IMG/VR virus record: IMGVR_UViG_3300032086_004492
Coordinates: 1 to 29,855 of that record
Direction: 5' to 3' (one strand)
Length of the DNA: 29,855 nucleotides
Origin: a virus
The notes beneath the pieces are model-generated. The model saw only the letters and a list, made by a program, of their open reading frames with translations, was not told where the DNA came from and did not search any database. Below, one piece after another: positions 7,333 through 8,499 of the stretch (its first letter is position 1; every line of letters begins with the position of its first letter). Both the position numbers and the translations under genes were made by a program.

Positions 7333-7361
7333 ATCATACCACTTGGAGTGCTGATTGTCAA
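7333..7361 (-). promoter_or_regulatory. Sigma70-type early promoter for tRNA-Val/tRNA-Leu
   Basis: Minus strand: -35 TTGACA (7361-7356), exactly 17 nt, -10 TATGAT (7338-7333). It lies in the 44-nt gap between tRNA-Met and tRNA-Val, so transcription would start a few bases before tRNA-Val. Confidence 0.8.
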
Positions 7362-7362
7362 G

Positions 7363-7436
7363 TGCTGGTTGAGGGAATCGAACCCATCTTTAGCTGAATT
7401 ATGAGTTCAGAGCATTTACCAAATTGCTAAACCAGC
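7363..7436 (-). tRNA. tRNA with CAU anticodon (elongator Met, or Ile2)
   Basis: 74 nt. Acceptor GCTGGTT pairs with AACCAGC, discriminator A. The anticodon loop is CUCAUAA, the anticodon stem CUGAA/UUCAG, and the T-arm has loop UUCGAUU. The G1-C72 pair argues against an initiator. Whether the CAU is lysidine-modified (Ile AUA) cannot be told by eye. Its 5' end overlaps the last 10 nt of the HNH gene (stop codon at 7427-7429). Confidence 0.9.
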
Positions 7437-7801
7437 GTCAATAGATTGTTGTGGATTTTGCGATGGCAGTTAGCACATAATAGCACACACTTGCTCATCT
7501 CCTCTTCAATCTTTTTCCAAGAATTTGCCGAAAGCATAGAAGAAATTTGTTTTTCTTTTACACTTGGATCTAAGTGATGATGATCCATACAAGATGCTGG
7601 GTGAAATTCACCACAAGCAGCACACGATGCAGTTTCTTTTACTTCTGTGAGTAATCGTTTGTTTTCATCGTGCCTTTTTTGCTTGTTGGCATAATGCCTT
7701 GCCTTGTACTCAGGGTCATTTTTAAGTTTTTCTCTCAACCAGTTGCGTTGATACTCTTTGATAGCATCGCAATCAGCAGAGGTCTTTCTTTTTCTTGGCA
7801 T
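7427..7801 (-). CDS. HNH homing-type endonuclease
   Basis: 124 aa. It has a basic, helical N-terminal half (KEYQRNWLREKLKNDPEYKA, like DNA-binding linkers of free-standing HNH proteins), then a zinc-supported HNH core: C60-x2-C63, DHHH at 73-76 (catalytic His), and C109-x2-C112 followed by H113 and H117 (CANCHRKIH). Family role: DNA nicking or cleavage, usually for self-propagation. It sits inside the tRNA cluster and its stop codon overlaps tRNA-Met, typical of a mobile gene landed beside tRNAs. A 15-bp hairpin with a late-promoter-like TCTAAATA in its loop lies directly ahead of the ATG, suggesting stage-specific translation. Confidence 0.9.
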   Translation of the reverse strand: MPRKRKTSADCDAIKEYQRNWLREKLKNDPEYKARHYANKQKRHDENKRLLTEVKETASCAACGEFHPASCMDHHHLDPSVKEKQISSMLSANSWKKIEEEMSKCVLLCANCHRKIHNNLLTLV

Positions 7802-7808
7802 GACTCAA

Positions 7809-7847
7809 ATATAACTCATAACTATTTAGAAAAGTTATGAGTTATAT
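7809..7847 (-). promoter_or_regulatory. Perfect 15-bp hairpin ahead of the HNH start codon
   Basis: Arms 7809-7823 and 7833-7847 are perfectly complementary (core ATAACTCATAACT), with a 9-nt loop. The 3' arm ends 7 nt before the HNH ATG at 7801. There is no U-tract, so it is not a terminator. It could hide the ribosome site in read-through transcripts. Confidence 0.8.
7823..7830 (-). promoter_or_regulatory. Late-promoter-like TCTAAATA in hairpin loop
   Basis: The minus-strand octamer TCTAAATA lies in the loop of the 15-bp hairpin. The same variant occurs ahead of gp4, the gp54-like gene, gp48 and the FmdB-like gene. A transcript started from it would lack the 5' arm of the hairpin. The octamer also occurs by chance inside coding sequence, so support is moderate. 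Confidence 0.45.
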
Positions 7848-7854
7848 GTATAAT

Positions 7855-7926
7855 AGTGTAGATGACAGGGTTTGATACCTGCAATACTCTCCGACGAGGC
7901 GTGTTTCCTTACATCACATCTACACT
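7855..7926 (-). other. Degenerate tRNA-like element
   Basis: 72 nt bounded by a perfect 10-bp inverted repeat (AGTGTAGATG / CATCTACACT), like an acceptor stem with extra pairs. It is followed by a D-arm-like GUG...CAC with a GG in the loop (the same D-stem as the neighbouring tRNA-Leu) and a T-arm-like CAGG...CCUG. The central part is several bases too short and has no proper 7-nt anticodon loop. Best read as a decayed tRNA or a tRNA-like RNA. It sits between the HNH gene and the UAU tRNA. Confidence 0.4.
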
Positions 7927-7963
7927 TGGCGTCTTTTTAGGCTATCTGTCTAACGACTACCAA

Positions 7964-8051
7964 TACTCGTGGATGGATTCGAACCATCTCAAAGGCACTA
8001 ATCTGGTGCAAATCGCTTATAAGGCGACTCTGACTACCAAGTCTCACGAGC
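7964..8051 (-). tRNA. Class II (long variable arm) tRNA with anticodon UAU
   Basis: 88 nt including discriminator A. The acceptor pairs as GCUCGUG/CACGAGU (G1-U72 wobble). The anticodon stem GUCGC/GCGAU holds loop CUUAUAA, so the anticodon is UAU (reads AUA, normally Ile). The T-arm GAUGG-UUCGAAU-CCAUC is canonical. The variable region is 23 nt with stem GCAC/GUGC, a class II feature of Leu/Ser/Tyr tRNAs, not Ile. The D-arm is short (stem GAC/GUC, loop UUGGUA). The amino acid identity is therefore uncertain. Confidence 0.75.
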
Positions 8052-8067
8052 AAGAAAAAAGATGAAC

Positions 8068-8241
8068 TTACTGAGCTTCGTTATTATCCTCAGTGTATAT
8101 TCGCAAAAGTTCATCATCGGCAGGCATCATAATTGCTGCTCTACCTTCTTCGTTTATAATGCCTATTCGTTCTCCATTTTCCACTCTTTCAAACAATTCA
8201 TCAAAATTTTCTTCCCATTCTTTCACAGTGAAAATTTCCAT
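8068..8241 (-). CDS. Phd/YefM-like orphan antitoxin (57 aa)
   Basis: Translation begins MEIFTVKEWEENFDELFERV and continues ENGERIGIINEEGRAAIMMP, ending in an acidic tail. This matches the N-terminal fold of Phd/YefM antitoxins: a TVxEW...F..L..RVE-GE helix pair, then I-strand, a G-R-A turn, and a hydrophobic strand ending in P. In the family this part dimerises and binds DNA while the C-terminus neutralises a toxin. No toxin gene is adjacent. CATAAATA (8250-8257) lies 9 nt upstream, so it may be a late gene. It could be a defence-countering antitoxin against a host toxin, or an unrelated small phage protein with the same fold. Confidence 0.65.
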   Translation of the reverse strand: MEIFTVKEWEENFDELFERVENGERIGIINEEGRAAIMMPADDELLRIYTEDNNEAQ

Positions 8242-8249
8242 AGTTGGTT

Positions 8250-8257
8250 TATTTATG
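8250..8257 (-). promoter_or_regulatory. T4-type late promoter element CATAAATA
   Basis: Minus-strand CATAAATA, 9 nt before the ATG of the Phd-like gene and overlapping the end of the preceding 64-aa gene. The leader would be very short. Confidence 0.55.
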
Positions 8258-8447
8258 ATGATACGGCAAGGTCGGCATACTCAATCTGATCATCCTCAAG
8301 ATTAGAAGTCACATAGTCCAGTACACGCATAAACTCATCAACCGTGTCACATTGTACCATTCGTTCATCACCCTCATCTCCCAAAAGTAGAAAGGAACGA
8401 GAGCAGATGTCAATCACAATACCTTGTACGCATTCAGTGTTGTTCAT
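8253..8447 (-). CDS. Hypothetical 64-aa early protein
   Basis: Small acidic protein (MNNTECVQGIVIDICSRSFL...) with no motif I recognise. It lies 24 nt downstream of a perfect-consensus sigma70 promoter (8471-8499), so it should be made early by host polymerase. Its end overlaps the late promoter of the Phd-like gene by a few bases. Confidence 0.65.
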   Translation of the reverse strand: MNNTECVQGIVIDICSRSFLLLGDEGDERMVQCDTVDEFMRVLDYVTSNLEDDQIEYADLAVSS

Positions 8448-8470: not shown

Positions 8471-8499
8471 ATTATAGGGCATCAGAGCAGGGTTGTCAA
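8471..8499 (-). promoter_or_regulatory. Perfect-consensus sigma70 promoter
   Basis: Minus strand: -35 TTGACA (8499-8494), 17-nt spacer, -10 TATAAT (8476-8471), identical to consensus in both boxes. Predicted start is about 8464, ahead of the 64-aa gene at 8447. It can feed the whole early island (Phd-like gene, UAU tRNA, HNH, other tRNAs) down to the terminator at 7034-7061. Confidence 0.9.

Follow-up and report, generated by a model that had tools for sequence, protein, structure and literature searches.

A hairpin with a late-promoter motif across its loop lies immediately ahead of an HNH endonuclease gene in the tRNA cluster of a T4-like cyanophage, and we consider it fairly probable that this hairpin is a cassette-borne leader that gates translation of the HNH gene by the site at which the RNA starts. 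The anatomy of the leader is clear, the leader is conserved in close relatives and moves with the gene, and the same layout recurs with unrelated stems ahead of distant HNH genes.

The analysed stretch of 29,855 nucleotides (the window) is a fragment of a T4-like cyanophage, and its nearest relatives are S-SKS1 and other Synechococcus phages. The minus strand carries a tRNA cluster in the order tRNA-Ile(TAT) (7963-8052), HNH gene (7427-7801, ATG at 7801), tRNA-Met(CAT) (7362-7436), tRNA-Val and tRNA-Leu. The 124-residue HNH protein matches PHROG 3106 (HNH endonuclease, E 4e-26), and C60/C63, D73-H75-H76 and C109/C112-H113 are all found in it. Its membership of the PHROG HNH families and these invariant cysteine, histidine and aspartate residues point to a homing-type endonuclease with predicted cleavage activity, and a PDB sequence search with the protein gave no useful structural relative. 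Upstream of the hairpin, an extra 115 nt (7848-7962) that are missing in most relatives separate it from tRNA-Ile, where GTGTAGATG and CATCTACAC close a tRNA-sized stretch with no Rfam match at gathering level. Beyond tRNA-Ile lie a Phd/YefM antitoxin-like ORF (8068-8241), which is below the Pfam cut-off, is preceded at 8 nt by CATAAATA and has no toxin seen with it, and a DUF7294 ORF (8253-8447); both sit between tRNA-Ile and an early promoter at 8499-8471.

Read from the minus strand, the hairpin consists of the 5' arm ATATAACTCATAACT (7833-7847), a 9-nt loop TTTCTAAAT (7824-7832) and the 3' arm AGTTATGAGTTATAT (7809-7823), which is followed by 7 nt (TTGAGTC) and the ATG. The perfect 15-bp stem at this distance from the HNH start, as given in the preliminary description, is confirmed. 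It is the strongest inverted repeat in the whole window; in 40 shuffled versions of the window, perfect 15-bp stems with a loop of at most 20 nt never arose, and those of at least 13 bp arose 0.025 times on average. The folding energy of the RNA hairpin is -16.7 kcal/mol (z -4.5), and none of 200 shuffles is equally stable. Scanning the window leader for GGAG, GAGG, AGGA and AAGG reveals no Shine-Dalgarno sequence, so the stem does not sequester one. Because just 9 of the 26 window genes examined have a Shine-Dalgarno sequence, initiation may not need it. The hairpin does not resemble an intrinsic terminator either: the stem is A+T-rich, the tail is TTGAGTC, and the scan found no terminator on the minus strand.

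The motif TCTAAATA (7823-7830, minus strand) had been placed in the loop, and it does lie there, read from 7830 to 7823, except that its final A opens the 3' arm. The published cyanophage late consensus is NATAAATA (PMC2984593). The string CTAAATA occurs 8 times in the window against 7.2 expected and is thus not over-represented. Its placement is more informative: 6 of the 8 window copies of TCTAAATA are located 18-42 nt upstream of a coding-strand start codon, as are 6 of 11 copies of NATAAATA, compared with 1 of 26 copies of [GT]TAAATA. This makes TCTAAATA a credible late promoter of the phage. TCTAAATA is also found in the loops of other hairpins (L337, L338), in agreement with such a role. 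In T4, late transcription starts 6 nt beyond the late motif. With this spacing, the +1 of the HNH late RNA is predicted at G7817 in the 3' arm, the same position as proposed before, and the transcript would have a leader of 16 nt (7802-7817). The HNH promoter is therefore placed so that its own RNA would be without the 5' arm.

RNA could also enter the HNH gene from upstream. A sigma-70 promoter, TTGACA-N17-TATAAT, lies at 8471-8499 on the minus strand and matches all 12 of the 12 consensus bases, where the preliminary description had noted a strong promoter. Because this promoter is perfect and no terminator-like site was found in the minus-strand scan between it and the HNH gene, early RNA likely reads through the HNH gene. 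A second strong sigma-70-like promoter (TTGACA-N17-TATGAT, 7333-7361) is located between tRNA-Met and tRNA-Val, and the downstream tRNAs therefore need not depend on RNA that crosses the HNH gene.

These elements suggest how the gate would operate. RNA entering from the early promoter at 8499-8471 would contain both arms, fold and hide the sequence before the AUG, and little endonuclease would be made. RNA from the HNH gene's own promoter, with TCTAAATA in the loop as the -10 element and a start near 7817, would lack the 5' arm, be unable to fold in this way and be translated. The T4 late type of this promoter would make the enzyme appear late. Predicted from sequence are thus the position at which the RNA starts, the block to translation, the late timing and the activity of the endonuclease. 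Folding calculations bear on the block: the 15 nt ahead of the AUG are predicted to become more accessible in 18 of 20 cases of the late type if transcription begins at the gene's own promoter, from 0.08 to 0.87 in S-RIM50, from 0.09 to 0.57 in L271 and from 0.24 to 0.45 in the window, while the change is small or nil in the close relatives L003, L009 and L013. In all families the own leader is predicted to be a short one of 12-23 nt. The anatomy lends good support to a reading along the lines of I-TevI and mobE.

We compared the hairpin among 17 full-length relatives of the HNH gene from IMG/VR (group A; 70-100% amino acid identity, with several near-copies and 8 distinct core hairpin sequences). 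All 17 keep the arms and, at the same place, the late motif (NATAAATA or TCTAAATA), so the conservation of stem and loop proposed as a check on the hairpin holds in the close relatives. The 5' arm core AACTCATAA is kept in every member and the arm cores are always 13 nt apart, whereas the late motif drifts among TATAAATA, AATAAATA, CATAAATA and TCTAAATA. Across all group A pairs, identity is 98.4% over the 18 arm bases and 69% at fourfold-degenerate sites; between the window and the other members the values are 94-100% and 41-61%, respectively.

The hairpin and the HNH gene also come and go together. The junction between tRNA-Ile(TAT) and tRNA-Met(CAT) is empty in L145, L317, L335 and L376, with the two tRNAs 0-3 nt apart, and occupied in L002, L003, L007, L008 and L140, with the tRNAs 411-412 nt apart. 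The insertion of about 411 nt consists of the hairpin leader and the HNH ORF and nothing more, and the flanks of an empty site (L335) and an occupied one (L002) are nearly identical. Its absence from matching sites in relatives indicates a free-standing, intronless cassette, with tRNA-Ile as the upstream flank of the insertion. The hairpin accompanies the HNH gene to other places as well, lying after an ORF in L015 and L016 and before HNH genes beside other tRNAs. Loose pattern scans of viral contigs gave mainly unrelated palindromes, and every copy that combined this stem with a TAAATA loop lay ahead of an HNH gene. Before tRNA-Met in L019 (5001-5108) and L020 (3414-3521), a 36-residue C-terminal remnant of a group A HNH protein (75% identity), with neither hairpin nor N-terminus, appears to be a decayed cassette. 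In L009, L013 and L113, the tRNA-Met downstream of the HNH gene is atypical in its T arm (GGTCGGGGCAGAACCGAC or a similar sequence) and is possibly a decaying tRNA gene.

Unrelated stems with the same layout occur ahead of distant HNH genes in S-RIM50, DSL-LC02, S-WAM2, phiM12 and many contigs. The hairpins are GTTCTAATTT-TTATAAAT-AAATTAGAAC in DSL-LC02, GGATGTAGT-TTTATAAATAGAATT-ACTACATCC in S-RIM50 (L146), GGTATGAT...ATCATACC in group D and TGGTATAA...TTATACCA in S-WAM2; that of phiM12 has AGAGG in its 3' arm, and group E and others likewise repeat the layout with stems of their own. We surveyed HNH upstream regions for a stem of at least 9 bp that lies at most 20 nt from the ATG and has the predicted +1 past half of the 5' arm. 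This arrangement is found in 37 of 106 HNH upstream regions, distributed over 14 of 52 protein clusters, compared with 3 of 1,060 dinucleotide shuffles, 11 of 1,748 control ORFs and 11 of 208 controls with a late motif. The position of the promoter relative to the palindrome varies between families, from the loop to the 5' arm to just upstream. Unlike the window, L396, L404, L271, L373 and L297 sequester a Shine-Dalgarno sequence; in these and in L302, the 3' arm or the loop contains it and touches the start codon. In groups C and D, early RNA must contain the hairpin because a sigma-70 (early-type) promoter sits 10-17 nt before the 5' arm. HNH relatives without the layout include that of ACG-2014f and, in S-RSM4 and S-WAM2, the HNH genes on the tail-fibre side, which no tRNA follows. 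Upstream of F-CphI of S-PM2, TATAAATA is found at 29 nt and is not enclosed by a hairpin of this kind; a terminator-like stem lies just before.

Among 33 hairpin-bearing cases that have a tRNA within reach, 19 have the HNH stop codon at positions 8-10 of the downstream tRNA (usually U8-A9-G10); the HNH gene borrows its stop codon from the tRNA. Six tRNA species are involved (Met, Gly, Val, Pro, Asn and Lys); the examples include the window, where the overlap spans 7427-7436 and the stop codon is 7429-7427, and L003, L146, L281, L332, L335, L346, L356, L359-L364, L367 and L407. In L337, L340, L346, L354 and L355, fragments of the 5' end of the HNH-downstream tRNA (tRNA-Ser, -Asn or -Gly) are located immediately ahead of the hairpin, which looks as though the cassette had inserted into the tRNA gene and provided it with a fresh 5' end. 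In S-RIM50, the hairpin's 5' arm copies the initial 11 nt of the tRNA-Gly gene downstream, suggesting tRNA remnants as one possible origin of a stem.

The promoter within the repeat is not always of the late type. In group B (L341, L342, L340 and L339), TTGACA-like and TATAAT-like boxes 17 nt apart stand where the late motif would be, inside an inverted repeat of the same kind (GGTTC-type), and the hairpins are weaker. In a cluster formed by L297, L302, L303, L307 and L310, the 5' arm of a 13-14-bp stem lies in the -35/-10 spacer and the 3' arm covers the Shine-Dalgarno sequence TTGGAGG up to the ATG; the outer stem pairs of L297 and L302 differ on both sides. A further HNH-like gene, in L376, has an 18-pair stem on the same sigma-70 plan. 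This plan is found in 9 of 106 HNH upstream regions, two of which are late-type hairpins that match it too, compared with none of 1,060 shuffles and 5 of 1,772 controls, one of these being the L376 HNH-like gene. Upstream of position 2501 in L352, the inverted arms GGATGTAGT and ACTACATCC remain only 3 nt apart, the late motif is lost and a sigma-70 promoter lies upstream. Relatives such as L352 without a late motif, or with a sigma-70 promoter instead, count against a gate defined by late transcription. Since the design persists in some relatives with a sigma-70 promoter, what is conserved may be the silencing of read-through and not lateness itself. Extending this, we tentatively propose, as a reading that has somewhat less than an even chance of being right, a single design rule for HNH cassettes regardless of promoter class: an arm that hides the start is built into the cassette's own promoter, either around a -10 element in the loop (late) or in the -35/-10 spacer (sigma-70: L297, L302 and L376), so that only RNA from this promoter would be readable at any landing site, while stem and promoter class turn over. 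The I-TevI-like logic put forward in the preliminary description is partly supported, by a layout that is kept in the close relatives and recurs with unrelated stems, and is qualified in three respects: the stem of the window holds no Shine-Dalgarno sequence, lateness is not universal, and invariant arms that show no compensatory change would suit a DNA operator as well.

An inverted repeat around a promoter could instead act mainly as DNA, as a palindromic operator around the -10 element at which the HNH protein or another regulator shuts the promoter, with the RNA hairpin as a by-product or a second layer. We regard this as unlikely, at about one chance in four, and several observations speak for it. 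The half-sites are nearly invariant within a protein subfamily, with fixed spacing (13 nt in group A and 15 nt in group D), and between subfamilies protein and half-sites both change. No compensatory base changes are found in group A, although the fourfold sites of the window and its relatives are only 41-61% identical; covariation counts in groups A and D are no better than those of shuffles, with nothing convincing in group D. Over all families G.U and A.C mismatches number 7 each, giving no sign of strand-specific RNA selection, and the group A sequences as such do not distinguish an RNA function from a DNA one. The sigma-70 variants of group B keep GGTTC...GAACC-like half-sites round the promoter although their hairpin is weak (z -0.3 in L342), and I-TevI offers a precedent, described in PMC2988022, of an operator over a late promoter. 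However, the arms or loops of L396, L271, L373, L297, L302 and phiM12 include the Shine-Dalgarno sequence and lie at or near the start codon, which counts against an operator because a transcription operator needs neither, and the varying position of the promoter relative to the palindrome fits it poorly as well. Unlike the I-TevI operator and homing site, the group A stem and its target tRNA resemble each other only at chance level (p 0.24-0.77). Among the families compared in this way, only S-RIM50, whose arm is a copied tRNA end, shows a significant resemblance, and the Val and L356 groups are borderline. The group A stem was also considered as a copy of the tRNA-Met anticodon loop, with which it shares CTCATAA, and the match is not significant. 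RNA gating and a DNA operator could both be true, as in I-TevI.

The hairpin lies within a co-transcribed tRNA cluster and begins 1-3 nt after tRNA-Ile in several relatives, as would suit an element for processing or stability of the tRNA transcript, at the tRNA-Ile 3' end or by slowing the polymerase, with a merely positional link to the HNH gene. This is very improbable: the hairpin follows the HNH gene and not the tRNA, being missing at empty tRNA-Ile/tRNA-Met junctions and present after an ORF (L015/L016) and before HNH genes beside other tRNAs, and it has no T tract, no G+C-rich stem and no minus-strand terminator in the scan. That an A+T-rich palindrome holding a TAAATA-like string arose by chance before a gene has almost nothing in its favour except that the window contains CTAAATA no more often than expected. 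None of the shuffled windows yielded a stem like it, all 17 relatives keep the hairpin with arms far more conserved than silent sites, and the layout recurs in 14 HNH clusters; the chance explanation is refuted by this conservation, and we give it next to no weight. Translational gating by the RNA start site is the reading that we carry forward.

The logic of a hairpin combined with an own promoter is established for I-TevI, segB and Aeh1 mobE, as described in PMC2988022 and PMC3014915, and PMC2988022 also gives I-TevII and I-TevIII as precedents. Genes of the I-TevI type, as presented there, share with the window a homing endonuclease, a hairpin at the translation start and an own promoter from which transcripts would lack the 5' part of the hairpin. 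They differ in being located in group I introns, in having the Shine-Dalgarno sequence inside the structure and in having been tested experimentally, whereas the window gene is free-standing between tRNAs, has no Shine-Dalgarno sequence in its stem and is known from sequence alone. Closer in type is mobE of Aeromonas phage Aeh1, described in PMC2988022 (citing Gibb and Edgell 2007, 2009) as a free-standing HNH gene of a T4-like phage with a late promoter and a hairpin; it lies in the nrd genes, however, and its hairpin demonstrably sequesters the ribosome binding site, while the window gene lies before tRNA-Met. According to the accounts in PMC2988022 and PMC13096335, segB of T4 and T6 is free-standing in a phage tRNA cluster, has a predicted hairpin and a late promoter, and shares a short sequence at its 3' end with a tRNA 5' end, but it belongs to the GIY-YIG family and not to HNH. 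In seg43 of Aeromonas phage 25, a very stable hairpin lies just upstream of the initiation region and does not include the ribosome binding site, although no embedded late promoter figures in its description in PMC2988022. Because it belongs to an HNH cassette anchored at a tRNA and sequesters no Shine-Dalgarno sequence, the window leader is best classed as a putative variant of the T4 endonuclease genes that are gated by hairpins. A search of the openly accessible literature found no account of leaders of this kind in cyanophages.

Recent work on SegB, in which this endonuclease linked to tRNAs multiplies tRNA genes to counter bacterial defence, names as an open question how such enzymes spare their own genome (PMC13096335). 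Many natural stem variants are now at hand to separate RNA folding from DNA binding. Homing endonucleases must avoid activation by whichever gene they land beside, and our results suggest that a portable leader with a promoter in a hairpin is a solution in wide use beyond the T-even phages, in the tRNA clusters of cyanophages.
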